The notes below the pieces were generated by a model that had not been told where the DNA came from, did no database searches, and worked only from the letters and a program-made list of their open reading frames with translations. Position numbers and translations under genes: made by a program. A stretch of DNA of 64,000 nucleotides from NCBI GenBank assembly GCA_017475265.1, contig JAFVFY010000003.1, positions 44,661 through 108,660 on the forward strand, given 5' to 3'. The DNA is from Prevotella sp. Its GTDB lineage: Bacteria > Bacteroidota > Bacteroidia > Bacteroidales > Bacteroidaceae. This document shows, in pieces, positions 2,037 through 30,335 of the stretch. Positions within the stretch are counted from its first letter, which is position 1; every line of letters begins with the position of its first letter.

Positions 2037-3497
2037 CTATATTGCTAACATGGAGCCGACATACTCAGGCACCTCGAAGCTATCCTCTACGAAATAGTTG
2101 ATGGCATAGCCAAGTATATCGACATATTCATCATGGGTCTTGGCAGGGAATCCGCAGACCTCGTCTATAAATTCCTCGTTCCAGTCGCCTTCAACCAGAT
2201 ACACGCGGCCACACTCAACCTTCGGGGCCACAGCATAGAGGCGCGTGTCCTTCGGATCAGTAGGCGACGGTGTGTAGGTGACATTGAGCGAACTCGACTC
2301 CTGCAGCTGCTGGCACACGCTCACACCGTTGGCTTTCGGCTCGATGCGCAGCGTGCTTTCTCCGTTGGCATCGTTAGCGGCCATGAAGTCCGGAAGATAG
2401 CGTATGAGGTCGGGAAACTCCTTGTAAACCTTCTGTGCGCAGGTGATGTAGATATTGTTCCGTATCTTGCAGGCCCCGATGATGCCGCTGGGGTCGTTGT
2501 CGTTCTTCTGCTTCTTGTTGTAGGCGGTATCGAGGAAGAAGTGAACAGGCTCACGGTAGTGCAGGGCGTGATAGTCTGCCAGGCTGATGTGCCTGAACCA
2601 TTTCTCCTTGATGATGTTACCGCCCTCGGCTGTCGGGTTCTGTTCGTACTGCCCGGCATAGCCACGACTGCCGAGGTCTGTCTTGGCTTCATTCAGTACA
2701 TGCCTCGGTAGTCTTACAGGATCGAGAAGGCCATCCACGTAGTTCTGCCTCAGTTCCACAGGGCTTACGTTGTCGGACAGCTCGGCAGGGAGGCAGATGT
2801 GACGGATATTCTCGCCCTTCTTCTTCAACAGGTAGCCAGTAACATCTTCCTCATGGAGTCGCTGCATGATGGTAACCACAGGCGTATTGGCCTTGTCAAC
2901 CTTACGTGAGGAAAGCGTCTTGGTGTGCTCGTTGGCGGCAGTACGCATCTGCTCAGATTCGGCCTGTTTGGGGTTTACAGGGTCGTCATTGATGATAACG
3001 TGAGCATGGAAGCCAGTAATGGTGGCTCCCGTCGAAGTGGCGTAGCGGTAGCCAGTATCGGTGTTCTCATAGTTCTGCTTGCCGCTCTTGTCACGCCTTA
3101 TCTTTATCTCGGGGAACAGCTTGCGGAACTTGTCGCTTTCTATGATGTCTTTCGACTTGGTGGCGTGGTCTATGGACAGGGCGCCGGAGTAGGAGTTGGT
3201 GATGATGCGGATGCTGGGGTCTTGCGTCCACAGCCAGACGGGCCACATCACCGTGACGATGGTACTCTTGGTGGTGCCAGGTGGAATGTTGATAATCAGG
3301 TCATACGGCTTTGGCTTTCGCTCCACGATAGACACGGAAAGCTTCTGGAGCTCACCACAAAGATACGGAATGTGCCAGTTGTACGCAGGTTCCTCTTTGA
3401 TGATGACGTCCCAGAAGGTCTTGACGAAGAAGAAGAAGCTCTTCCTGCACTCGTCAGCTACCACGGCGATTGCCAACTCCGAATAGTCGATGTTCAT
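2037..3497 (-). CDS. terL: Terminase large subunit
   Basis: 486 residues; the motor ATPase and headful nuclease that packages phage DNA into the prohead. The ATPase half shows a Walker A variant PPGTTKST at residues 72-79, an acidic Walker B VIINDD near 167-172 and a coupling-type segment PVVTIMQRLHEED near 210. The RNase H-like nuclease half begins around residue 315 with VHFFLDTAYN, whose Asp is the expected first metal ligand. It lies between the small terminase and portal, as expected. Length and motif order are typical, with no sign of damage. Confidence 0.95.
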   Translation of the reverse strand: MNIDYSELAIAVVADECRKSFFFFVKTFWDVIIKEEPAYNWHIPYLCGELQKLSVSIVERKPKPYDLIINIPPGTTKSTIVTVMWPVWLWTQDPSIRIITNSYSGALSIDHATKSKDIIESDKFRKLFPEIKIRRDKSGKQNYENTDTGYRYATSTGATITGFHAHVIINDDPVNPKQAESEQMRTAANEHTKTLSSRKVDKANTPVVTIMQRLHEEDVTGYLLKKKGENIRHICLPAELSDNVSPVELRQNYVDGLLDPVRLPRHVLNEAKTDLGSRGYAGQYEQNPTAEGGNIIKEKWFRHISLADYHALHYREPVHFFLDTAYNKKQKNDNDPSGIIGACKIRNNIYITCAQKVYKEFPDLIRYLPDFMAANDANGESTLRIEPKANGVSVCQQLQESSSLNVTYTPSPTDPKDTRLYAVAPKVECGRVYLVEGDWNEEFIDEVCGFPAKTHDEYVDILGYAINYFVEDSFEVPEYVGSMLAI

Positions 3498-3508
3498 TCC
3501 CCTAATGT

Positions 3509-3538
3509 TTTCGTTCGTTCCCCCGCCTGTGAGGCGGG
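3509..3538. repeat. Phage hairpin repeat, copy R2
   Basis: TTTCGTTCGTT box (3509-3519) plus CCCGCCTGTGAGGCGGG (3522-3538), a 7-bp stem with a GTG loop. It sits between the stop of the small terminase and the start of the large terminase, the box 11 nt upstream of that start codon. Confidence 0.85.
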
Positions 3539-3540
3539 CG

Positions 3541-3975
3541 TCACTCCTTCTTGTTAATGAGGTCGAGCCCGATGGAAAGCAGCACCTCGCGCTGCTCTTC
3601 CGTAAGCTGGTCTAAGTCGATTTTCTGTTTGGGTACCAGAGATTCGCCATCCTTTCCGACAAGTTCCCTGCGCTCTGTGTAGCCCCTATCCTTCATCTGG
3701 GTCTTAGCGTAGAAGATTAGCATGGTGGTGTCACCGTCCTTCATCTTCTTTAGGATAAGGGCCTCGCAGAAGTCCTTCTGCAGCTCCTTCACATCGTCCA
3801 CTTTCTCCTTGAAGTCCGGGTCTTCGTTATACCAGCGGTAGAACGTCATGCGGGATATGCCAGCAGCCTTACAGGCAGAGGAAACGATGCCCGATGTCTT
3901 ATTTAGCTCTTCGAGAATACGTTCCTTGTCTGTCAGCACCCTTTCCTGAATGGTCTTGTCATTGTTGTTTGCCAT
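3541..3975 (-). CDS. terS: Terminase small subunit
   Basis: 144 residues from the ATG at 3975; an upstream in-frame ATG at 4011 would overlap the preceding gene by 32 bases and is less likely. The start MANNNDKTIQERV is followed by a helix-turn-helix (residues about 25-50, SSACKAAGISRMTFYRWYN) of the kind terminase small subunits use to recognise pac/cos DNA. A helical oligomerisation region and an acidic tail follow. The gene lies directly upstream of terL and 4 bp downstream of the IbrA-like gene. Confidence 0.88.
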   Translation of the reverse strand: MANNNDKTIQERVLTDKERILEELNKTSGIVSSACKAAGISRMTFYRWYNEDPDFKEKVDDVKELQKDFCEALILKKMKDGDTTMLIFYAKTQMKDRGYTERRELVGKDGESLVPKQKIDLDQLTEEQREVLLSIGLDLINKKE

Positions 3976-3979
3976 AGTC

Positions 3980-5044
3980 CTATTGTTGTAAGTCACGAAT
4001 GAGGTCGCCAACGACTACTCGATAGGTGCGCTTCTTTGGATCGCCAGCAATGAGAATCTGGTAAACCTTCTTGTAAGTGGCCTGTGAGTGTCGGTCGGTC
4101 AGCCGTGCGTAAAGCTTCTTGGCCACCTCATGCCCCGGATAGTCCTTGGGATGCTCGGCGGCTTTCAGCATTTCCTCACGCAGCAGCTTCTTATAGTCCT
4201 TCTCATTACCAAATTGCCTGTTCTGCTGAGAGGAACGGAACATTTCGGTGTCCCAGTATAGCATAACGAGGTCTGCATTCGGCTCACGCTTCAAGATACG
4301 CTCGTATAGGTTAGGGTAGAACTCCAACACTTTCGGCAGCGACTTGATGGTGTCGATGGAAAAGAACTGGCTGATGCGTAGTCTGTTCAAAGGTACACCT
4401 ACCTTGTAGAGGTAGATGTAAGTCTCTGGTATCTGTAGGCCATATAGCTTGATGTATAGCCAGACGTCGTTATCCTTCCAGTCATAGAGAGGATAAACGA
4501 ACTTGCTTTTCTTCATCGAGGCTATTGCCGTGCGCCGCTGGACGGACTCAGCCATACGGAGGCCAACCATCTGAGGGATGGACTGGAAAATCTTCTCTCC
4601 GAAGGTCTGGTAGTTCATCCCCATGCGGAAGTCCTTGTGGTTCCTGATGGCGAACTTCGGCATCTGGCGCACCCACACGCTTTCTTTGCCAGGCTCCCAG
4701 CAGATGAATGTTTCGTCGTTAGCGAGCTTGTTGCAGCAGTTGAAGTGCTTGATAGGCATACAGAACCAGTAGAACTTTGCACCAAGCGACATGAAGCGTG
4801 AACGCCAGTTCAACACAATCTGCTCGACATCGGGATAGATGGCTTCCTCGTCAAAGAAGATGACCATGAGCCGTGAGAACTGGATGCCGTACTTCTGCAT
4901 CGTCTTGATGACCATATCGGCCATGCAGATAGAATCCTTACCGCCAGAGAAGGACATCGAGACGAACTGGTTCCTGTTGAAGGTTTCCAGTATGCGCCTC
5001 TCAGCCGCTTCCACTACATTGATTTCAAGCTCCTTTTCAAACAT
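3980..5044 (-). CDS. PP-loop ATPase, PAPS-reductase/IbrA-like (DUF3440 type)
   Basis: 354 residues. The PP-loop signature SFSGGKDS lies at residues 31-38, the ATP-pyrophosphatase site shared by PAPS reductases, DndC and tRNA-thiolating enzymes. Downstream segments such as VGLRMAES, FVYPLYDWKDNDVW and the VPLNRLRISQ region match the layout of IbrA-type proteins rather than housekeeping CysH. There is no C-terminal CxxC of a thioredoxin-dependent reductase. The ParB-like gene 4 bp upstream matches IbrB, so the pair resembles the prophage-borne ibrAB genes of E. coli, known as activators of immunoglobulin-binding protein expression with unclear chemistry. It is last in a five-gene cassette before terS. 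Confidence 0.82.
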   Translation of the reverse strand: MFEKELEINVVEAAERRILETFNRNQFVSMSFSGGKDSICMADMVIKTMQKYGIQFSRLMVIFFDEEAIYPDVEQIVLNWRSRFMSLGAKFYWFCMPIKHFNCCNKLANDETFICWEPGKESVWVRQMPKFAIRNHKDFRMGMNYQTFGEKIFQSIPQMVGLRMAESVQRRTAIASMKKSKFVYPLYDWKDNDVWLYIKLYGLQIPETYIYLYKVGVPLNRLRISQFFSIDTIKSLPKVLEFYPNLYERILKREPNADLVMLYWDTEMFRSSQQNRQFGNEKDYKKLLREEMLKAAEHPKDYPGHEVAKKLYARLTDRHSQATYKKVYQILIAGDPKKRTYRVVVGDLIRDLQQ

Positions 5045-5047
5045 AGC

Positions 5048-5575
5048 CTAACCCTTTCTGATTATCACTGCCTTGCTGAAGGTCTGCTTGCGGTCTGTAA
5101 TCATCTGTAGGAACGTCTGGCGGTCGAGCTTCGACAGACGGAAGATTTCTTCGTCGCTCATGCCAAGTTTCTTGCTGATGTCGGCGACTGATACGCCCTC
5201 CTTAATGAGCGACTTGACAATATTCTCCATCGGCTCCAGCAGATGGGTACCACGCGCACGGTTGAACGTGATGGTTCCTGCCATATCATCCTCACGGTTG
5301 GCATGAGCGACGATGACAACGGGAATCTTATTGCCAAGCATGGTTTTCAACGGCTCCCTGCCTGACACAAGCCAGCGGTGGAAACCGTCAATGATGGTAT
5401 AGTCGGGCCTGATCACGATGGGGAAGCAGAAGCCGTTGTTTAGAATACTCTCCATCAGCAGCTTCAAGTTCTTCTCCAGAACCTTGTTAGGGTTGTAGTC
5501 ATTGGGCTTTACCAGGTCACGGTCTATAAACTGGAGATTTCGCAGGGGCGCGAACAGGTCTTTCGTCTGGCTCAT
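5048..5575 (-). CDS. ParB-like nuclease-domain protein, IbrB-like
   Basis: 175 residues from MSQTKDLFAP. This start overlaps the upstream stop by four bases (ATGA) and is preferred over an in-frame ATG ten codons earlier. It has the ParB N-terminal fold: VKPNDYNPN near residue 22, IVIRPDYTIIDGFHRW at 54-68 (GFHRW replaces the GxRR box) and TITFNRARGTH at 101-111, which is typical of IbrB. A helix-turn-helix-like segment (SVADISKKLGMSDEEIFRL) follows. It is paired with the IbrA-like gene immediately downstream. A role in plasmid partition is unlikely because no ParA is present. The real substrate is unknown. Confidence 0.8.
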   Translation of the reverse strand: MSQTKDLFAPLRNLQFIDRDLVKPNDYNPNKVLEKNLKLLMESILNNGFCFPIVIRPDYTIIDGFHRWLVSGREPLKTMLGNKIPVVIVAHANREDDMAGTITFNRARGTHLLEPMENIVKSLIKEGVSVADISKKLGMSDEEIFRLSKLDRQTFLQMITDRKQTFSKAVIIRKG

Positions 5576-6144
5576 AGCGTAATCTCCTTTCCGCAGTGTG
5601 GGCATACGATGGTGTGAGCGGCCTGCATTCCTTCCTCGATGTCATTACGCTCCTGTACGTCCTCTTGCTGCTTTTCCTCGTCGAATTTCTGCTTGGGTGC
5701 TGCTGGCTCCTGGAAGTCCACGCCCATATTGTCGGGCACATTCTCCTTGATGATGGCTTCAAGGTATTCTGTGGTGAATCCTATTACCCTCGTGTCGCCA
5801 ATCTCGCGGATGATTTCCTCAACCTTTGTAAAGTCGATATAGGACATAGACTGAATCTTGTTGTCCTCGACTACGATTCTGAGCTTCTGTTTCTCGGACA
5901 GGCCACGCATGATGGTAACCTCGCCCTTCGTTTCACCCAGCAGCTCCAGGGCCAGCTTCTTGCCGTGACCGCAGAGGATCCTAAAATCTTCGTCAACGAT
6001 GATGGGGTAGTACTGGCCGTATTCGTCCATACTCTCCGCAAGTGCCTTGACCTGTTCCTCGGGGTGAATATTAGGGTTTTTGTCGTATGGTACGAGCTTT
6101 GACAGCTCAACCACTTTCTTCTCTTGCTTGATGTTCGTTTTCAT
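5572..6144 (-). CDS. ParB-like domain protein with C-terminal zinc ribbon
   Basis: 190 residues. The ParB-like domain spans about residues 10-100, with KLVPYDKNPNIHPEEQV near 16-32 and the core box VDEDFRILCGHGKKLAL at 50-66. There the usual G-x-R/H-R is GHGKK. A charged linker leads to a CPHCGKEI knuckle at residues 181-188, which gives two of the four cysteines of a zinc ribbon. Its start overlaps the stop of the upstream PP-loop gene (ATGA) and its stop overlaps the start of the IbrB-like gene. The overlaps imply coupled synthesis of a PP-loop/ParB/ParB/PP-loop set. Confidence 0.8.
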   Translation of the reverse strand: MKTNIKQEKKVVELSKLVPYDKNPNIHPEEQVKALAESMDEYGQYYPIIVDEDFRILCGHGKKLALELLGETKGEVTIMRGLSEKQKLRIVVEDNKIQSMSYIDFTKVEEIIREIGDTRVIGFTTEYLEAIIKENVPDNMGVDFQEPAAPKQKFDEEKQQEDVQERNDIEEGMQAAHTIVCPHCGKEITL

Positions 6145-6923
6145 TGCTTTATTGATGTTAGGAATTGACGTGCTGAATTGATATATACCGACGCGGCCAT
6201 CACAACGTGAGGGTCTATGTCGTAAACCTCCTGCCAGGAATATTCACGCTCTGGCCAAAGCCCGGTGCCTTTCGTCCAGCCGTCCTTTGAGCCATAGAGC
6301 ACCCAAGGCAGATTGTCGTGCATGAAGTAGTGGATGACTGCCATCACCTGCTCATGCGTCCAGTGTGCAATCGGGTTGTATCTGGTATGGCCGTCGCCAG
6401 TCGTGTAGATGTTGGTGCCCCTTCCTACAAAGTTGCCGTCCTGTGAACGTCTGCCGAGAATGAGGAACTTGATACCCGTTCTCTCGCAGTAGTCACGCTG
6501 CCCGGCATATTGCAGTTTATCCATCCAGCGGGAGTTCATCTTTGCCTCAGAGGGGAACAGCATTTCGGGATGATCCGCAAGCCAACGGAGTGACAGATCA
6601 CCAAGATTGACGGTGGTCATGCCGACGGGATGGTACTGATACACCCATTGCAGGAAAGCGGGATATTCCAGGGCCTTCGATGTGCAGAACACACAACGAT
6701 GGATGCCAGCCTGTTCACACACATATTGGAGTGCCAGCGAATCTTTGCCACCACTCCAAGCATAGGCGACATAGCGGCCAGCCGTTTTCTGCTTGATGTC
6801 ATTAACGGTTGAAGCAACCAGTGCCAGCGCTTCGTCACGCGACACCAGTTGCTCGATGTTCTGCCAGGCTTTGGCAAAGTCCTCGTTCCTTGCAACCTGT
6901 TTCCTCGGGATGGTTGACCTCAT
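6141..6923 (-). CDS. Second PP-loop ATPase (PAPS-reductase family)
   Basis: 260 residues. WSGGKDS at 56-62 is the PP-loop. LGRRSQDGNFVG near 170-185 and NPIAHWTHEQVMAVI near 203-217 correspond to the arginine loop and the family motif contacting nucleotide. It is shorter than and different from the IbrA-like protein, so the two are not a recent duplication. Cysteines are few (CxxxxCVFC near residue 82), and no CxxC tail is present. One base separates it from the symporter gene upstream and it overlaps the ParB-zinc gene downstream. Family enzymes activate or transfer sulfur or hydrolyse ATP to AMP; the target here is unknown. Confidence 0.82.
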   Translation of the reverse strand: MRSTIPRKQVARNEDFAKAWQNIEQLVSRDEALALVASTVNDIKQKTAGRYVAYAWSGGKDSLALQYVCEQAGIHRCVFCTSKALEYPAFLQWVYQYHPVGMTTVNLGDLSLRWLADHPEMLFPSEAKMNSRWMDKLQYAGQRDYCERTGIKFLILGRRSQDGNFVGRGTNIYTTGDGHTRYNPIAHWTHEQVMAVIHYFMHDNLPWVLYGSKDGWTKGTGLWPEREYSWQEVYDIDPHVVMAASVYINSARQFLTSIKQ

Positions 6924-6924
6924 A

Positions 6925-9231
6925 TCATTCGAATTGCAAGGCTGTACTGAATGTGAATGCTTTGGTACCAGCGTCGTATTTGAACTGGAGCCAGTCGTAA
7001 TCGGTAATCTTCAAGCGTAGGTTGGCAATCACTCCCGGCTTGTTGCGCATGGAGTAGCCAGCATTGACCACGAAACGCCCATGAGCGACACCACCGAGAA
7101 CCTGCAGCCTGTCCGTATCTATGAACTTGTGGCCGTTGTAGGCATCATCCCACGTCGCATCAATCATGAAGCCCTTTGGCAGCTTGACGGTTGCAGACAG
7201 CGTATGACGGTAGATATTGGCCTTGGTGTCATAAATGGAGCGGGATAGGAACCACAGCCATTTGTTGTAGTTGACATTGAGCCACAACTGAGGCACAAAA
7301 ATCTCTCCACCGATATTGTACTGAGCAACGGCTGTAGCGGACAGCCAGTCGGTGAGATTTTCCTTATATCCGATAAAAGGCGATACAGAGGTGCTTCCAT
7401 GGCCGTGCAGGTTGGCAGACACTGGAATCCATATTCTATACCTCAAAGGCTGTGTAATGCCATCGTAAACCTGCGCAGAGAGGCCACAGGGTAGCATAAG
7501 GAGTATGACCACAGCCAATTTCTTCAGCAGCTTACGGGCAATCGAATCTATCTTCTCACGGTTGCAGACGTGTTCCTCATGGATGGCCTCTGTAAGCTTT
7601 ATCATGCCGCTTGTATTCTTACGCATGTGGTCTGAGATTGCTTCAAGGCTCTGTTTCAATCCCTGCATGGCCTCACTCTGAGCGTTTGCCAGTTCGCATG
7701 CGGCTTGCCTGAGTTCCTTGTGTAGCTCTATGATGGTCTCCATTTCCTTTGACGGTGCAACTGTCACCGTTATTGGTTTCCCCTCCTTCTCTCTCTCTTT
7801 GGAGAAGAGTGAGAGAACGCCAGACAAGCCGATTGTGAGCAGTGAACCAGTAACGATCATCGGCACGTTTCCATTGAGGTTGCCGTAAGCGAAGATGGGA
7901 AGCCCTACACAGATAGACAGCAAGATTCCCCAAAACAGCCCAGCTTCGGACATCTTAACACCCTTGATGGCCCATATAGAAGGGAGCATGACACTACTGC
8001 GCAAAGTACCATACAGAAGGAACAGATACACGATGGTCATGCCTGGTATGTTGGCAATGATGATGGCAAAGATTGCTACTGCAATCATAGCCATCTTAGC
8101 CAGACGCCTTCCATCACCGAGGAAAAAGTGTAGTAATCGGTTGTCTAAAATACGGCCGCACCACTCCTTGCTTGCGAATATTCTGGAGCTGATGTCGTGG
8201 CCCGATACTGAGGACACCGCACACAGGATGCTATCGACGGTGCTCATGAGGCCGGAGAGAATCAGCAGCAGGAACGGGAACACGAACCACTTGGGCGCAA
8301 ACGCGATTACAGACGCTACATTGGTGAGTTGAGTGTCAGATATAGCTAAATGTGCCCCGGCAGCTATAAACCCAAGGAAAGACAAGGAAACGGGCACACA
8401 AGCGAAAATAAGTGCCGCGAACATCATGGACTTCTTCACTTCACCCTCTCTGATGGAGAAAACACGCTGCCAAAACATCTGGTCGCCAAAAGTGCCAGAC
8501 AATAGGCCGATGGCTGTTGGTATTCCGAATGACAGCATGACATTGATTCCGCTCTCGTCGGTGAGTGATCCGAAAGTTCCTGTCGCACCTGCGAGGCCAT
8601 CAGCGAACGTGCCAGGCTCTGTGTTACTGAATATGATAGGCAAGCCGACGGCCAGCACTACCACAATCCACAACATCTGCCAGAAGTCCGTCATGATGGA
8701 TGCCTTGATACCCTTGGCCACCGTATAGGCCAAAGGTATGAGGGCGAGGGCAAGCGTCGTACCGAAGAACGGGAGGCCACACAGCTTATGCAGGATGGTA
8801 GCACCTGCCAGCAGCTGGACGGCAAAGCTCAACGTCTGGAGTCCGAACGATTCCACAAGGTAGAGGTTGTGTGTACGGTTGGAATACTTCTCACGGATGA
8901 ACGCTGAGAACGTCCACCCGTCAGGCTTAATCTTACGCATCCAGCTTGCAAAGAAGCCGAACAGTACAAGTGTCAGCACGTTCGGTACAACGAACCAGAA
9001 CACGCCCGGCAGTCCCTGAGTGTAGGCTTTCTCTGCTGCTACGAACATCGAAGGCGCCCATACCCATGTAGCAGCTATGGAGAATGCGGCTATCCACCAA
9101 GGCATTTTCCTGTCTGCCACCAAATAGCTCTCTTTAGTTCCCTTTTCGCTGATGAACCTAACCAGGAGCATCAGCACGACGAAGTAGCCCGCAAGGAGCA
9201 AAACGCCGTCCATTTTAGTCAAAATTTCCAT
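6925..9231 (-). CDS. SLC5-type sodium:solute symporter fused to a barrel-like C-terminal domain
   Basis: 768 residues, far longer than the 450-550 usual for the sodium:solute symporter family. Residues 1 to about 485 form the symporter: many hydrophobic helices, ESYLVADRKMPWWIAAFSI near 34-52 and the LSGLMSTVDSILCAVSSVSG segment near the typical sodium-site helix. Residues about 500-565 are a charged helical linker. Residues about 569-587 are a hydrophobic run ending CGLSAQ, like a Bacteroidota signal peptide with a signal peptidase I site. Residues 588-768 alternate polar and aromatic/hydrophobic residues like an outer-membrane beta-barrel and end in FE. A transporter in a phage cassette is unusual. 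Fusion of two genes by stop loss is an alternative. Confidence 0.78.
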   Translation of the reverse strand: MEILTKMDGVLLLAGYFVVLMLLVRFISEKGTKESYLVADRKMPWWIAAFSIAATWVWAPSMFVAAEKAYTQGLPGVFWFVVPNVLTLVLFGFFASWMRKIKPDGWTFSAFIREKYSNRTHNLYLVESFGLQTLSFAVQLLAGATILHKLCGLPFFGTTLALALIPLAYTVAKGIKASIMTDFWQMLWIVVVLAVGLPIIFSNTEPGTFADGLAGATGTFGSLTDESGINVMLSFGIPTAIGLLSGTFGDQMFWQRVFSIREGEVKKSMMFAALIFACVPVSLSFLGFIAAGAHLAISDTQLTNVASVIAFAPKWFVFPFLLLILSGLMSTVDSILCAVSSVSGHDISSRIFASKEWCGRILDNRLLHFFLGDGRRLAKMAMIAVAIFAIIIANIPGMTIVYLFLLYGTLRSSVMLPSIWAIKGVKMSEAGLFWGILLSICVGLPIFAYGNLNGNVPMIVTGSLLTIGLSGVLSLFSKEREKEGKPITVTVAPSKEMETIIELHKELRQAACELANAQSEAMQGLKQSLEAISDHMRKNTSGMIKLTEAIHEEHVCNREKIDSIARKLLKKLAVVILLMLPCGLSAQVYDGITQPLRYRIWIPVSANLHGHGSTSVSPFIGYKENLTDWLSATAVAQYNIGGEIFVPQLWLNVNYNKWLWFLSRSIYDTKANIYRHTLSATVKLPKGFMIDATWDDAYNGHKFIDTDRLQVLGGVAHGRFVVNAGYSMRNKPGVIANLRLKITDYDWLQFKYDAGTKAFTFSTALQFE

Positions 9232-10411: not shown

Positions 10412-11731
10412 TTAGTCTAACATTACTCCTTTCACCGGGAACTTTCTATTCATATCAGATGCAAGCCAGAACGAGCGGAACGGCCCGTATGCAGTGACGA
10501 CGGCATCACGTGTGATTTCAATGGCGTACTGGTTGCTGTACTTCGTCTCAACGGTGGAACCGTCGGGCGTCGGCACGTCACCTGCTGTCTGTAGGTCATA
10601 GATGGGACAGGCCACCGTGGCGCGGAACGGACCAGTATAGCGGATAAGTGGCTGCTCGTTCTTGCGGGAATCATAGTAATAGCCCGCCTGAAGGGTGGCG
10701 CGTAGGTCGGCATCCTCAACGTTGGTCTCGATGGCACAGGGGCAGTTGCTGATGGAGCCGTCGATGCGGAGGTCTGTACACCAGTTATGGTACTCCGTCT
10801 GCCTGTAGTTCATGGCGCGTATGCCTATGCCGAAATTGCTGATCCTGGAGTTGATGCGTACACAGGTGATGTAGGCAAGGTCTGTTGTGAGCTGTCTGTT
10901 TTCAACAGGATTGATGCAGATGCCGCAGCCCGTGGCGCTTCCGTATGCCCCCTTGACGCTGGTGTTGATGGTGAGCCCCCAAATGCGCTGCCCTGCCTCG
11001 TCGGCATGTACCTCGATGCAATTCTGCGTGTAGTTCTTACAGAGCGACACGTCAAAGCTGCCGCCCTCGATGGTGACGGCGTTCTGGTAGCTTTCGCTGA
11101 CAGCAACACTGAGGAGTGTGATGTCCTTATCGGAGAAGATGATGGTATTGTTCATCATCCCCACGCCTGTCTGTTCCATTGACAGCTTCATGTCGGAGCC
11201 GTGCAGGATCAAGCGCTTCTCCCTGCTCAGTAGGAGCGGGGCGGTGATGTAGAACGGTTTCGTCGGGAAGTGCAGTTCCCTGAAAGACGAGTCAAGGGCA
11301 TATTGCAGCGCGTCGGTCTCGTCGATGCGCTGTCCGACATAGATACCGTACTGGTTGCTGACTACCTCGCAGCCGCTGGCGAACCATCCGACATTACCGG
11401 GACAGTCGAAGGTGCCTTGGACGCTGAGTTTGCTGAACACCTTGCGGTCTGCATGGATGATGGTGTTACGTCCTATCAGCGTGCCGTTGCTGATGCTGCC
11501 ACCGTCCTTGAACTGGAGGGTGACGTTTGGCGGCAGCGTGACCGTCTCACCGTTGAGGTCGTAGGCGGTGCTGATGGTGTAGGTCTTATCGGCCTTGGTG
11601 ACGGTCTCGGCGAGCGTTTTCTTCTTGTTCCGCTCTGCGATGGGTACTGGCTTCAGGTCGGTCAGCACCAGTTCTTTCTTTACTGCCTTTTGTGAGAGGG
11701 CAGCGATTCGTTTAGATGTTTTCTCGTCCAT
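10412..11731 (-). CDS. Predicted beta-helix (pectate-lyase-fold) protein
   Basis: 439 residues. A short helical N-terminus is followed by repeating strands of right-handed parallel beta-helix character: VTLPPNVTLQFKDGGSIS near 70-87, then NGTLIGRNTIIHA, and later turns rich in Asn/Gly with I/V spacing. No signal peptide is seen. Such folds are typical of phage tail spikes or adhesins that bind or cut surface polysaccharide. The gene, however, lies among replication and accessory genes, far from the terminase-portal region. It may be a misplaced receptor-binding protein or a lysogenic conversion gene. No catalytic residues are identifiable by eye. Confidence 0.6.
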   Translation of the reverse strand: MDEKTSKRIAALSQKAVKKELVLTDLKPVPIAERNKKKTLAETVTKADKTYTISTAYDLNGETVTLPPNVTLQFKDGGSISNGTLIGRNTIIHADRKVFSKLSVQGTFDCPGNVGWFASGCEVVSNQYGIYVGQRIDETDALQYALDSSFRELHFPTKPFYITAPLLLSREKRLILHGSDMKLSMEQTGVGMMNNTIIFSDKDITLLSVAVSESYQNAVTIEGGSFDVSLCKNYTQNCIEVHADEAGQRIWGLTINTSVKGAYGSATGCGICINPVENRQLTTDLAYITCVRINSRISNFGIGIRAMNYRQTEYHNWCTDLRIDGSISNCPCAIETNVEDADLRATLQAGYYYDSRKNEQPLIRYTGPFRATVACPIYDLQTAGDVPTPDGSTVETKYSNQYAIEITRDAVVTAYGPFRSFWLASDMNRKFPVKGVMLD

Positions 11732-26610: not shown

Positions 26611-27762
26611 TTATTCCCCCTTCTCCAGCCCAATGTCTGGTATGTTCATCACCGCTGCCTGCTTCGTCTTGTCAAGCACACGGGCATAAATTTGCGTCGT
26701 GCTCAGTTCACGGTGGCCTAGCAGCTTCGAGACGGTATAGATGTCGGTGCCAATATCCAGCATCATGACGGCGAAGGTATGCCGGGCACAATGGAAAGTA
26801 ATATCCTTGGTGATGCCAGCACGAAGCATCCACTCTTTGATAGCGTGATTGGTAGCTGACGCGGTAAGGAAGTCGTAAAACACCTTGTCCGTTGGCTCCC
26901 GGCGTTCTCCCAACAGTTCTGCTGCTTGTGGCGTGATGTCGATGTACTCCTGACCGCTGGTCTTTTTCTGCTTGAAAATGATACGGGTATAGTCACCTTG
27001 CTTGTGTACCTCGCTCCATGTCATCTTCATTATGTCGGATCGTCTGAGGCCTGTCAGACAGGAAAAGAGAAAAGCCCGCTTCACTCCAGGGCTGGAGCAC
27101 TCCGTCTTGGTGATGGCCTTCACCTCGTCGATGGTGAGATACATGCGCTTGCTTTCCTCTTCCTTGAAGTTCTCTATGCCACGCATGGGGTTCTTTTCAA
27201 TCACGCCGTCGGCCAAAGCCTGATTCAGGCAGGCCCGCAGTTTGTTGAAGTAGGAGAGGCGAGAGTTACGGGACAATGGGTGATACTCCAGCTTGCGCTC
27301 ATATCTTGGAGCCCATGCCGTAGCCTCGTTCTCCAGATAGTCCTTAAATCCCTGCACCCACTCCGGCGTTATGTCTTCAAAAGTGATGTCCTGGTTCTTC
27401 TCGTATATCTGCAAATGCTTAAAGCAGGAGTACCAGTTCCCCCAGTTCCCCCGTGACTCTGGAGCACCCTTTCGCTTCTCGCACATGGCAGAGTAGTAGT
27501 CGAAGAATTTAACATTATGCTCTGGCTGGTGGAATCCGAACTTTCCGTTCTGGTAGTCCACGATGCGTTTGGCCCTGACAGCCTCCGCCAGCTGCATCGT
27601 TTTCTTGTTCGTTTCCTTGTCGGCCCTGCTCTTCTCTGGGATAAGGTAGAGCTTCAAGTATTCATACTCCCTCTTGCCGTTGTGGTAGAGGTCAAGGTAA
27701 AGGGTCTGTCTGCCATCCTTCAGCAGACGCTTCCGTAATCTGATTGGTTCTGATGATGTCAT
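26611..27762 (-). CDS. int: Tyrosine recombinase / phage integrase
   Basis: 383 residues from MTSSEPIRLRKRLLKDGRQT; an ATG 17 codons upstream adds a poor sequence overlapping an inverted repeat and is less likely. It has the Bacteroidota layout: N-terminal arm-type domain, SAM-like core-binding domain (about 80-190) and catalytic domain. The catalytic residues are Arg in LTGLRRSDI, His and Arg in FHCARHTFA, His in LLGHREL and Tyr in TTQIYARVL. The enzyme integrates and excises the phage, here beside the 3' end of mnmE. It converges with the small repressor-like gene, with repeat R6 between them. Confidence 0.95.
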   Translation of the reverse strand: MTSSEPIRLRKRLLKDGRQTLYLDLYHNGKREYEYLKLYLIPEKSRADKETNKKTMQLAEAVRAKRIVDYQNGKFGFHQPEHNVKFFDYYSAMCEKRKGAPESRGNWGNWYSCFKHLQIYEKNQDITFEDITPEWVQGFKDYLENEATAWAPRYERKLEYHPLSRNSRLSYFNKLRACLNQALADGVIEKNPMRGIENFKEEESKRMYLTIDEVKAITKTECSSPGVKRAFLFSCLTGLRRSDIMKMTWSEVHKQGDYTRIIFKQKKTSGQEYIDITPQAAELLGERREPTDKVFYDFLTASATNHAIKEWMLRAGITKDITFHCARHTFAVMMLDIGTDIYTVSKLLGHRELSTTQIYARVLDKTKQAAVMNIPDIGLEKGE

Positions 27763-27936
27763 ACTTTTGTTGTTTTGTTGCTTTATGTATTTCGCGCAAC
27801 AAAGTAACAACAAAAAAATGACAAACGGAATAGAATATACTCAAAAACTGCAATTTATAACAATATTTAAGACCTCCAGTGTTTTCGGCGCTTTTCTGAG
27901 TTCTTTTGCTGTTTTTCTGATACTATTTTTGTGTCT
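27763..27936. other. Prophage-host junction region with an inverted repeat
   Basis: 174 bp between the integrase start and the mnmE stop. Arms TTGTTGTTTTGTTGC (27767-27781) and GCAACAAAGTAACAACAA (27796-27813) are inverted copies with a 3-nt difference, and could be integrase arm sites or an operator. The rest is AT-rich and without genes. The attachment core probably lies here or within the mnmE 3' end; it cannot be identified without the other prophage end. Confidence 0.5.
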
Positions 27937-29307
27937 CTACTTTCCCACGCAGAAATGTTTAAAAATATTATTTAGGGTTTCCTGGGGTGTGATTTGTCCG
28001 CCAGTGATTTCTGAGAGAGTATCAAGGGTTTGGCGGAGGTCTTCGGAAAGGAGGTCACCGCTGAGTTGTATATGGAGGCCGGAGATGACACGCTGGAGGT
28101 GGGAGTGGGCACGAGAGAGGGCGTCGTAGTGGCGGGCATTAGTGACGATGACGTCGGAGGAGTTGGCGATTAAACCGAGGTTCTTTGCTTGGTCAAAGAT
28201 ACAGAGTCTTAAGTCGGAGAGGGCTCTGCCATGTTTCGCGCTGATTTTCAGGACGGGAGGGGCGGAAGGGCTTAACGACCAAGAGGGGCTTTTTTCTTCT
28301 CTATCCACCTTGTTTAGAATGGGAACAAGCCCCTTTTGGGCACATCGCTGCAACATATCGCTTTCCTCCTCAATGGATGGTTTTTCATCGAATAGCCAAA
28401 GGACGATGCGGGCTTTCTGGATGGCAGCGTATGTACGCTCAATGCCAATCTGTTCCACCTCGTCTGACGTTTGGCGTAATCCAGCGGTGTCAATAAAGCG
28501 AAACTGTACACCATTGATTTCCATCGTTTCCTCAATCGTATCGCGGGTGGTACCATGAATGTCAGAAACTATGGCGCGGTCGTCACCTACGAGCTGGTTC
28601 AGGAGTGTGCTTTTCCCCACATTGGTCTTTCCGACGATGGCGACGGGTATGCCCTGTTTGAGGGCCTGTCCTGTTTCGAAAGAAAGCGCAAGGCGCATCA
28701 CTCGGTTATCAATTTCCTGAGCCAGCGAGAGAAGTTCTGTGCGGTCGGCAAACTCCAGGTCTTCGTGGTCGGAGAAGTCGAGCTCGAGTTCCAGCAGAGA
28801 GGTGAGCTTCAGGAGTTGGTCGCGGAGCCTAGCAAGCTCGGAGGAGAAGTGGCCTCGGAGCTGGCTCATGGCAATATCGTGTGTAGCTTTATTTGATGAT
28901 GCTATCAAATCTGCCACAGCTTCTGCCTGTGAGAGGTCCATCTTTCCATTGAGATAGGCACGTTGGGTGAACTCACCAGGACGAGCCATGCGGCAACCTT
29001 GCTGGACGAGGATTTCCAGAACTTTGTTAAGAATGTAGGAAGAGCCGTGGCAACTTATCTCCACAGAGTCTTCGCCTGTGTAGGAGTGGGGCGCGTGAAA
29101 GATGGTGACAAGAGCCTCGTCAAGAACCTCCCCAAGCCCTTTAGAAGGGGTGTAGAGGCGTGTGAAGTGGACGGTGTTGGCTGCGCCATTAGCACAGCTT
29201 ACGGAACAGAGGGAAGAGACGACCGTGAAAGCATTAGGACCACTGACGCGGATGATGCCTAGGGCACCACCAGGGGCGGTAGCGGGAGCACAGATAGTAT
29301 CGGTCAT
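27937..29307 (-). CDS. mnmE: tRNA modification GTPase MnmE
   Basis: 456 residues from MTDTICAPATAPGGALGIIR; the start overlaps the ltaE stop (ATGA), and the longer upstream frame is rejected. It works with MnmG to install cmnm5 groups at U34 of tRNAs. The N-terminal THF-binding domain is followed by the G domain: GKTNVGKSTLLN, GTTRDT, DTAGLR and NKVD. The C-terminus FCVGK holds the essential Cys. Near residue 50 a short GC-rich segment translated TPSKGLGE looks like an in-frame repeat insertion. The integrase lies 175 bp downstream. Confidence 0.96.
   Translation of the reverse strand: MTDTICAPATAPGGALGIIRVSGPNAFTVVSSLCSVSCANGAANTVHFTRLYTPSKGLGEVLDEALVTIFHAPHSYTGEDSVEISCHGSSYILNKVLEILVQQGCRMARPGEFTQRAYLNGKMDLSQAEAVADLIASSNKATHDIAMSQLRGHFSSELARLRDQLLKLTSLLELELDFSDHEDLEFADRTELLSLAQEIDNRVMRLALSFETGQALKQGIPVAIVGKTNVGKSTLLNQLVGDDRAIVSDIHGTTRDTIEETMEINGVQFRFIDTAGLRQTSDEVEQIGIERTYAAIQKARIVLWLFDEKPSIEEESDMLQRCAQKGLVPILNKVDREEKSPSWSLSPSAPPVLKISAKHGRALSDLRLCIFDQAKNLGLIANSSDVIVTNARHYDALSRAHSHLQRVISGLHIQLSGDLLSEDLRQTLDTLSEITGGQITPQETLNNIFKHFCVGK
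29125..29158. repeat. Short in-frame palindromic repeat in mnmE
   Basis: CCTCCCCAAGCCCTTT and AGAAGGGG lie close together, in the same style as the C/G-rich palindromes in the TonB receptor and M16 genes. It encodes about 9 residues (TPSKGLGEV) just before the conserved APHSYTGED block. Without alignment the insertion is only inferred. Confidence 0.4.
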
Positions 29308-30335
29308 AACGATTGTAGGGCTTCGGCCAAAGTCTGGAGGTCGGCTTCTGTAGTGGCCCAACTGGTGACGAAGCGGCAGAGGGTGTGCGTGCCGTCAATG
29401 GGTTCCCAAGTCTCGAATAGCACCTGTTGCCTGAGCTTTTCTATCTGCTGGTTGGTGAGGACGACGAACTGCTGGTTGGTAGGCGAATCCTTGATGGGGA
29501 TGCCTGCATCGGTGAAGAGCTGGCGCAGTCGCATGGCCTTCTCTATGGCATGGCGGGCAATGCCGAAATAAAGCCCGTCTGTGAACAGTGCATCAAACTG
29601 CACACCTGCCAGCCGGCTCTTAGCCAGGAGGGCACCGTGTTGCTTTATGATGTTGAAGAAGTGGCGCGGCGCATTGTTACGAGGGAAGACGACAGCCTCG
29701 CCACAGAGGGCACCAACCTTCGTGCCGCCGATGTAGAACACGTCGCAATGACGGGCCAACCACGGCAGGTCGAAGTCACAGGTATCGGCCATCAAACCAT
29801 AACCCATACGTGCGCCGTCGACAAAGAGCGGCACCTCAAACTTCTGGCAAAGGGCATAGATACGTTCCAGTTCTTCCGCACGGTAGAGGGTCCCGAGTTC
29901 TGTGGGTACGGTGATGTAGACGATGCCAGGGATGACCATGTGCTCATACACAGGGTCGGCATAGAAACGTTCGTGGAAGCTTTCCAGGTCGTCGGCGCTC
30001 ATCTTACCGTCATGCGACGGAAGGATGATAATCTTGTGGCCGTTAGCTTCTACAGCTCCCGACTCATGTACGTTGATGTGTCCTGTATCTACGGCAATAA
30101 CACCCTCGTAACCAGTTAGCACACCGTCGATGACGGTGGCATTAGCTTGTGTGCCGCCCACAAGGAAGTAGATGTCGGCATCAGGGCATTGACAGGCTTC
30201 GCGAATCTTACGGCGTGCCGACTCGCTCCACTCGTCAAAGCCGTAAGAGGCGCTCTGCTTAGAATTTGTGTCAAGCAGGTGTTGCAGGACGGAGGGATGA
30301 GCTCCGTTGTTGTAATCGCTTTCGAATGAAATCAA
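29304..30335 (-). CDS. ltaE: Low-specificity L-threonine aldolase
   Basis: 343 residues of the fold-type I PLP family; it cleaves L-threonine/allo-threonine to glycine and acetaldehyde. FLVGGTQAN near 57-65 and HESGAV near 90 line the cofactor pocket. FVDGARMGYGL near 175 supplies the PLP-binding Asp, and FYIGGTKVGALCG near 205-217 contains the Schiff-base Lys. Starts MISFESDYNNGAHPSVLQHL. It overlaps mnmE by 4 bp, so the two are cotranscribed. Bacteroidota homologues are often annotated beta-eliminating lyase; the substrate is thus slightly uncertain. Confidence 0.88.
   Translation of the reverse strand: MISFESDYNNGAHPSVLQHLLDTNSKQSASYGFDEWSESARRKIREACQCPDADIYFLVGGTQANATVIDGVLTGYEGVIAVDTGHINVHESGAVEANGHKIIILPSHDGKMSADDLESFHERFYADPVYEHMVIPGIVYITVPTELGTLYRAEELERIYALCQKFEVPLFVDGARMGYGLMADTCDFDLPWLARHCDVFYIGGTKVGALCGEAVVFPRNNAPRHFFNIIKQHGALLAKSRLAGVQFDALFTDGLYFGIARHAIEKAMRLRQLFTDAGIPIKDSPTNQQFVVLTNQQIEKLRQQVLFETWEPIDGTHTLCRFVTSWATTEADLQTLAEALQSL

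Follow-up and report, generated by a model that had tools for sequence, protein, structure and literature searches.

The window analysed here, a stretch of 64,000 nucleotides of Prevotella sp. contig JAFVFY010000003.1 (assembly GCA_017475265.1; positions are counted from the first letter of the stretch), contains what looks like an integrated prophage and, within it, a block that combines an importer, two PP-loop enzymes and two ParB-type proteins and that stands just before the packaging genes in many bacterial viruses. That the genes of this cassette make up a single functional unit to which import belongs appears to us very probable. As for what the unit does, the reading that we prefer is that its five genes import a small polar molecule and modify a nucleic acid with it, most likely the phage's own DNA shortly before packaging; we assign this reading a probability of about 0.45, and it is with the same reserve that we suggest a modified nucleic acid as the product. 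The IbrAB pairs and single phage genes for 'PAPS (3'-phosphoadenosine 5'-phosphosulfate) reductase' are already known, and the records annotate the members separately; in the literature searched, which left out most subscription journals and all bioRxiv preprints, we found no description of the importer cassette.

All members of the cassette lie on the minus strand. The first to be transcribed is an open reading frame (ORF) of 768 codons (6925 to 9231; PF00474, E = 3e-19, above the cut-off; phrog_20720, 1.4e-111), in which a sodium:solute symporter (SSS) is fused in frame to a small barrel-like protein. It is followed by PP-loop A (6141 to 6923, 260 residues), a protein of CysH/CysD-like PP-loop fold that matches phrog_424 (1.6e-18) and, below the cut-off, PF01507; by ParB-Zn (5572 to 6144, 190 residues), which joins a ParB/sulfiredoxin fold to a C-terminal CPHCG knuckle (phrog_620, 4.2e-38; PF02195 below the cut-off); by an IbrB-like protein of ParB/sulfiredoxin fold (5048 to 5605, 185 residues; PF02195, 6.8e-7, above the cut-off; phrog_2159, 6.2e-60); and by the IbrA-like PP-loop B (3980 to 5044, 354 residues; PF01507, 4.8e-9, above the cut-off; phrog_2302, 1.7e-75). 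Homologues of IbrB point to a start at 5575 rather than 5605, which would produce an ATGA overlap, and with this start the cassette junctions range from a 4-nucleotide overlap to a 3-nucleotide gap; the stop of the symporter at 6925 lies 1 nucleotide before the start of PP-loop A. A first-pass annotation of this DNA had listed four overlapping or near-touching genes, all of which are indeed present there, intact and tightly packed, and had missed the fifth member, the symporter. The missed transporter changes the picture, given that the unit now appears to be one that probably brings in a small molecule.

The window proteins are intact in their motifs: ATWVWAP and GLMSTVDS are present in the symporter ORF, GHGK and CPHCG in ParB-Zn and DGFHR in IbrB, and, as the first-pass annotation had stated, both PP-loop proteins keep SGGKDS (at residue 57 of PP-loop A, which also has GRRSQDGN at 157, and at residue 33 of PP-loop B). 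The closest relative, the IMG/VR contig L005, shares 87 to 100% protein identity over the cassette, and the ratios of nonsynonymous to synonymous substitution (dN/dS) against it are 0.19 for the symporter ORF, 0.13 for PP-loop A, 0.11 for ParB-Zn, 0 for IbrB and 0.03 for PP-loop B, the comparison values for terminase and portal being 0.01 to 0.06. The cassette genes are under purifying selection. Since the ORFs are conserved in phages of several phyla and give such ratios (0 to 0.19), they are not chance ORFs, and the same ratios together with the kept catalytic motifs rule out degenerate remnants.

Co-occurrence was counted in three scans, which together yielded 165 distinct locus classes, the viral and bacterial sets partly overlapping: PP-loop A against IMG/VR (best 80 of 128 relatives), PP-loop A against bacterial genomes (best 80 of 89) and the symporter against IMG/VR (best 80 of 181). 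After removal of duplicates (identical 140-residue ends) and of loci with short flanks, 57, 62 and 50 of the 80 loci each were left for the single-anchor counts; ORFs were assigned to families by best profile score, the profiles of the two PP-loop proteins overlapping with each other, as do those of the two ParB proteins. At the 57 viral loci anchored on PP-loop A, PP-loop B is present in 56, IbrB in 56, ParB-Zn in 55, a transporter in 55 and all of these in 55; the corresponding numbers for the 62 bacterial loci are 59, 58, 60, 58 and 57. In these anchor counts, locus L208 figures as incomplete because a longer spurious ORF was taken as its anchor, its cassette being actually complete. When the symporter is the anchor, PP-loop B accompanies it in 47 of the 50 loci, IbrB in 48, ParB-Zn in 44 and PP-loop A in 32. 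By these counts, PP-loop A is the most dispensable of the enzymes, and the symporter, PP-loop B and IbrB form the core. A rough background is available from another collection, 50,697 deposited phage records, of which 215 contain a homologue of PP-loop B and 2 a homologue of the L072 symporter, one of the two being a weak match at 24% identity; the window PP-loop A and the L072 PP-loop A each find 1. At that sensitivity the full cassette is nearly absent from the deposited phage records, so that our counts rest on metagenomic contigs and prophages.

The order of the genes is reshuffled between phage groups, with adjacency kept. Among 171 rows, the order symporter, PP-loop A, ParB-Zn, PP-loop B, IbrB is seen 88 times and the same order with a reduced symporter 17 times; symporter, barrel-like protein, PP-loop A, ParB-Zn, IbrB, PP-loop B accounts for 14, symporter, ParB-Zn, PP-loop B, IbrB for 11, and ParB-Zn, symporter, PP-loop B, IbrB for 6, the remainder being rarer orders or short stretches. 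Neighbouring genes overlap or lie at most 60 nucleotides apart at 121 of 135 junctions between PP-loop B and IbrB, 122 of 125 between ParB-Zn and PP-loop B, 93 of 130 between PP-loop A and ParB-Zn, and 86 of 93 between symporter and PP-loop A. The members have also diverged together: across the 92 loci where the full set of five genes is followed by a large ORF, the pairwise identities of cassette members correlate strongly, and in the 77 of these loci without the barrel gene r is 0.65-0.87 among members versus 0.34-0.58 with the downstream ORF, mostly a terminase, a comparison that is descriptive because the loci are related and because the downstream ORFs belong to unrelated families, which lowers the latter correlations. 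The first-pass annotation had proposed one multi-enzyme pathway rather than a simple ibrAB copy, a proposal that the single-anchor counts and the correlated divergence bear out, and it had named rare co-occurrence and inactive remnants as outcomes that would speak against it; what we find is frequent co-occurrence, intact motifs and dN/dS of 0-0.19. The region before the terminase often hosts cargo genes, and some records show IbrAB-like pairs with no transporter annotated, so could the cassette be an accumulation of unrelated morons? This seems highly improbable in view of the co-occurrence, the correlated divergence, the shuffled order with kept adjacency and the replacement of the transporter in the same slot, and a chance neighbourhood was set aside on the single-anchor counts.

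The strongest argument that import matters is that unrelated importers can take the same slot, the ABC (ATP-binding cassette) case being a single locus. Among the 20 PP-loop A loci that lack the symporter, the slot is taken in 13 by a membrane protein of about 330 residues, which we read as a reduced symporter, and in 1 by an ABC permease with a binding protein; the other 6 have no recognised transporter. Scores of more than 300 bits for the reduced symporter (for example, L060 7009-8001, L216 7012-8007 and L003 4308-5309) are reached at 20 loci over the whole set, phage Taranis being one, and L082 and L083 look alike; five examples gave no above-cut-off Pfam or NCBIfam match and four no PHROGs match. 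Its assignment rests on profile comparison: against the phage symporter, hhalign gives a probability of 94.5 (E = 7.7e-8, 205 columns), and 94.5 again over the 331 columns of a forced global alignment, versus 3.5 for SecY and 0.1 for an ABC permease, controls that were single sequences and not profiles. At L062 (3944-5846) the slot is filled by an ABC permease (PF00528) and an NMT1/SsuA-type binding protein (PF09084), for which the best NCBIfam models, all below cut-off, are SaoP and TauC for the permease and the SsuA family for the binding protein; no ABC ATPase gene was recognised among the ORFs listed beside this importer, of which only 3273-3887 was scanned.

The symporter itself, which is also present in the related phage contigs MT836198, L005 and L006 (the latter two from IMG/VR), represents a phage-specific clade that is distinct from the DUR3-type urea and SLC5A7-type choline symporters of the SSS family. 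These are, however, its nearest solved relatives, as a profile of 10 relatives matches first DUR3 (9j7c; 1.5e-31) and next the choline transporter (1.7e-27), over most of the length in both cases. An ATW.WAP pattern is found in 77 of 79 non-redundant sequences, and the Trp of its 'aatW' aligns with a Trp in both DUR3 and the choline transporter; in the latter, this Trp contacts choline. One candidate for the substrate suggested by these alignments is a small amine or amide; sulfur compounds stay possible because the ABC replacement is related to SsuA/TauC. Work on the SSS family indicates that Ser-Thr versus Ser-Ala in the 'GLxSTxDS' stretch bears on sodium versus proton coupling, and since the phage protein keeps Ser-Thr where DUR3 has Ser-Ala, it is possibly coupled to sodium and not to protons.

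In the window ORF, the SSS part spans residues about 1-480 and is followed by a linker and then by a small signal-peptide protein (about 575-768). The two parts form one ORF in the window and in L005 and are separate genes in L006 (4456-6998), with 50% identity of the barrel part between the window and L006. Judging by the signal peptide, the sequence pattern and the type of host, the small C-terminal protein resembles an outer-membrane barrel; no PHROG family matches it, and a profile search returned no solved-structure match at E up to 1. An internal start or signal-peptidase cleavage are the candidate routes for processing the fusion of an inner-membrane symporter with a signal-peptide protein.

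Turning to the enzymes, a SGGKDS-type motif is found in all 85 non-redundant homologues of PP-loop B, and 53 of 54 aligned PP-loop A homologues match PF01507 at E up to 0.01. Phage cysH genes are annotated in virome papers as assimilatory sulfate reduction, a role that one review lists as 'not validated' (PMC12713726), and the PF01507 domain of the two PP-loop proteins would fit a true cysH-type PAPS reductase that helps in this process. The C-terminal catalytic motif of CysH is ECG[LIVM]H. It is absent from all 64 PP-loop A and all 85 PP-loop B sequences (non-redundant), so that true PAPS reductases were set aside; together with the fixed partnership with two ParB proteins and a transporter, this makes such auxiliary metabolism most improbable.

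A different relationship is suggested by PP-loop B homologues, of which 39 of 40 scanned match the BrxP model and 32 of 40 a DndC model (best E 1.2e-12), although a shared domain of PAPS-reductase type could account for these matches. DndC and BrxP, of the Dnd and type 4 BREX systems, act in DNA phosphorothioation as enzymes of the PP-loop/PAPS-reductase type, with DndB, of the ParB superfamily, as a partner (PMC12839542, PMC10853773). Could the PP-loop proteins then make a phosphorothioate-like or thiolated nucleic acid with the help of a host cysteine desulfurase, the transporter importing a sulfur compound? Besides the BrxP/DndC likeness, such a scenario is compatible with the SaoP, TauC and SsuA models that are nearest to the L062 importer and with the conserved cysteines, namely C95 of PP-loop B (kept in 94% of 85 sequences) and C69 of PP-loop A (kept in 92% of 64). 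However, the CxxC motif is rare (4 of 64 PP-loop A, 3 of 85 PP-loop B); no DndD-, DndE-, SspB- or SspC-like protein was found among the five cassette proteins scanned; and the solved transporters closest to the symporter take their names from urea and choline, not from sulfur. We therefore regard the sulfur scenario as unlikely, if worth keeping in mind. Compared with the Dnd and type 4 BREX systems, the cassette also differs in having a transporter and in that no desulfurase was found among the five proteins scanned. The window PP-loop B gives weak matches to CysD models as well, and profile searches with PP-loops A and B returned weak, mixed matches. The phrog_2302 family is matched in 13 of 14 control genomes and is, therefore, not specific for phage IbrA.

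As to the two ParB-type proteins, the Pfam ParB_N gathering score of 26.3 is exceeded by IbrB (29.7 bits) and missed by ParB-Zn (16.8 bits), and profile searches with both gave weak ParB/Noc matches along with some artefacts, designed proteins for instance. ParB-Zn also matches families of phage DNA methyltransferases, namely in their ParB part (phrog_498, 2.1e-29; MTase_II, 1e-13). Its C181 and C184 are kept in 93% of 88 non-redundant homologues; of the 'zinc ribbon' reported by the first-pass annotation, the knuckle stands, but with its one CPHCG this is half a ribbon. A PADLOC scan of the five window cassette proteins returned matches to BrxP and MTase_II and a weak one to CasR only. Of the two functions raised at first pass, nucleic-acid modification stays a hypothesis here; for an 'anti-host system' there was no specific support. 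The DpdA (TGT-like) family gave no match in the family scans, which covered the five cassette proteins and not the rest of the prophage. IbrB has the motif DG[FYW][HN]R in 84 of 86 non-redundant homologues and gives a weak score, far under the cut-off, with the serine kinase SerK (4.1e-5), so that proteins of ParB/Srx fold may have small molecules as substrates. These two features, along with the dedicated importer, could fit a pathway in which the imported precursor becomes an adenylated or amidated metabolite, such as a signal, an antimetabolite or an antitoxin-like compound, the ParB proteins being nucleotide-handling enzymes that do not bind DNA. Because the usual place before terminases of several families better fits a packaging-time function and ParB-Zn resembles the ParB part of DNA-methyltransferase fusions, we consider this an improbable alternative, somewhat behind the sulfur scenario.

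The place next to the terminase genes, noted at first pass, is confirmed: transcription on the minus strand runs from the symporter ORF through PP-loop A, ParB-Zn, IbrB and PP-loop B to the terminase small subunit directly downstream (3541 to 4011; phrog_4044, 4.5e-11), the large subunit (2037 to 3497; phrog_38, 3e-92) and the portal protein (520 to 1977; PF05133, 2.6e-33). At most of the distinct loci (135 of 143), the cassette is followed by an ORF of 380 residues or more that starts no further than 3.5 kb downstream (median 868 nucleotides); among the 68 of these 135 ORFs that were scanned, 44 gave a match to the terminase family phrog_675, 18 to phrog_15, 12 to phrog_38 and 11 to phrog_9, besides others, the families overlapping. 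The cassette thus accompanies several packaging lineages. The titles of the bacterial loci name Bacteroidota, Lachnospiraceae, Oscillospiraceae, Selenomonadaceae, Phascolarctobacterium and Streptomyces, among others. Within the host's family, 2 of 201 sampled genomes, one of them the window's own, show a strong match and 7 a weak one (E above 1e-6), a scarcity of carriers that is as expected for mobile cargo; among 119 sampled genomes of the host's order, the symporter reaches E values near 1e-209 in the window's own copy only, the next best being 2.8e-31.

Under the modification hypothesis that we prefer, the symporter or its replacement would carry the substrate over the inner membrane; its passage through the outer membrane would, in Bacteroidota phages, be the task of the barrel-like protein. 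PP-loop B, aided by PP-loop A where present, might then split ATP to adenylate an acceptor oxygen in a DndC/BrxP- or TilS-like manner, whereupon the imported nucleophile, or a sulfur one, would replace the adenylated oxygen. For the two ParB/Srx-fold proteins we imagine a part like the one put forward for DpdB or DndB: they could bind both DNA and nucleotide and so present the substrate or license it. In favour of this hypothesis we count the co-occurrence, the transporter replacement, the shuffled yet adjacent order, the correlated divergence and the terminase adjacency, as well as the matches of PP-loop B to DNA phosphorothioation enzymes and of ParB-Zn to the ParB part of DNA methyltransferases; furthermore, ParB-domain proteins accompany phage or bacterial DNA-modification genes elsewhere (PMC12783734, PMC12839542).

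Several observations weigh against this hypothesis. We infer the nucleic-acid target, the nucleophile and the product alike, and the BrxP/DndC likeness is weak evidence for a DNA target because BrxP, DndC, CysD and CysH share a domain of the PF01507 kind. PP-loop A is absent at 18 of the 50 symporter-anchored loci. Conversely, no transporter lies near PP-loop A in six rows: two of them, L015 and L169, are one Riemerella prophage, and the others are L212, L086 and, from Streptomyces, L232 and L235. In L241, PP-loop A stands by itself, only 1.6 kb of downstream DNA being covered. The symporter and barrel stand without adjacent enzymes in L092-L094, L101, L104, L105 and L111, which may reflect either import with a separate use or decaying copies; there is no phrog_2302 match in the records of L101 and L104, which may be fragments. 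In two of these loci the barrel gene continues in frame into the C-terminal part of PP-loop B (L092 9449-9976, by eye, and L111 1565-2638, where phrog_2302 is matched at the end of the fusion), with different break points; these fusions point to a deletion of the enzyme genes and to a cassette that phages can do without. Finally, IbrAB carries the label of a regulator pair in the records. The IbrA/IbrB pair is associated with activation of prophage or eib gene expression, and deposited records name homologues of PP-loop B and IbrB 'co-activator of prophage gene expression', so that one might see in the cassette a device for regulating host or phage genes, in which IbrA and IbrB co-activate the expression of the prophage, with an effector that the transporter either senses or supplies. 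This we deem quite unlikely: the label was probably copied by homology, the almost invariant active-site motifs suggest catalysis, and a regulatory effect could itself follow from nucleic-acid modification.

Some variant loci are described here for their own sake. A fusion of barrel and PP-loop B of the same kind is also seen in L093, L094, L101 and L104. The Riemerella prophage of L015 and L169 has a split version, with ParB-Zn and IbrB before the terminase and PP-loop A after the portal gene, and neither a transporter nor PP-loop B in the stretch covered; in L212, also from Riemerella, PP-loop A is broken into two ORFs. By contrast, Anaerotruncus colihominis DSM 17241 (L205), a cultured commensal, is a lysogen in which the ORFs of the cassette have their full length. 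In the window, a 439-residue ORF at 10412-11731 is absent between the corresponding neighbours in L005 and is perhaps a recent insertion. Also in the window, a recombinase-like gene (26611-27813) adjoins an mnmE-like gene and then a ribosomal-protein operon, the names being read off the translations, and 26611-29361 is a likely integration site; when attachment-site repeats were looked for, two turned up, one of 16 and one of 14 bases, which we do not claim as att, and the contig ends at the right edge of the window.

How does the cassette relate to systems that have already been described? The closest are the IbrA/IbrB pairs of Escherichia phage PhiR5_2 and Streptococcus phage CHPC1148, in which IbrA is homologous to PP-loop B (28.6% and 27.4% identity, respectively) and IbrB is adjacent and co-oriented, as in the window; with their adjacency and conserved SGGKDS and DG[FY]HR, the window PP-loop B and IbrB belong with these pairs. 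Leaving aside a hypothetical protein of 412 residues that lies upstream in CHPC1148, the annotation of the stretches covered in these two phages lists neither a transporter nor a second PP-loop or ParB, whereas the window joins the pair to all three. Faecalibacterium phage Taranis has a block of a membrane protein (the reduced symporter), ParB, PP-loop (IbrA), IbrB, two small genes and the terminase genes, differing in that PP-loop A is missing and that each member carries an annotation of its own ('transporter membrane protein', 'PAPS reductase', 'ParB-like'); genes of matching size are found in phage Pioen. The left end of Mycobacteriophage Compostia (Bclasvirinae; L259 1-4474), isolated on Mycobacterium smegmatis, encodes ParB, two small genes, a PAPS reductase-like protein, ParB and the terminase, but no transporter or second PP-loop is annotated in the stretch. 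Among modification systems, CmoX/CmoY phage DNA hypermodification (5-carboxymethylcytosine, amide ligase) likewise pairs an ATP-dependent ligase with a DNA-modifying enzyme, and many of its contigs have ParB-domain proteins, although the enzyme families are others and the accessible part of the paper mentions no importer (PMC12783734). Serratia phage eta was dropped as a lead to a ParB-linked modified guanine, as its paper reports that no modified base was found (PMC3918226).

The broadest form of the hypothesis, which we put forward tentatively and with less confidence than the modification reading as such, is that of a widespread modification pathway with its own nutrient importer, harboured by temperate phages mostly of gut and other anaerobes, in which an exogenous amine, amide or sulfur compound, taken up via the symporter (and, in Bacteroidota phages, a phage outer-membrane pore), would be put on phage DNA before packaging by way of PP-loop adenylation. 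Phage 'cysH'/PAPS reductase genes appear in many virome papers, and a review lists them under sulfate assimilation without validation (PMC12713726); for the family described here, the conserved context places 'cysH'-like genes in a cassette with an importer and ParB proteins before the DNA-packaging genes. The reduced, 330-residue symporter is of interest by itself for transporter biology. If the hypothesis is true, part of the 'cysH' of viromes would represent DNA modification rather than sulfate reduction, and phages would be able to depend on an exogenous metabolite for the modification of their DNA.

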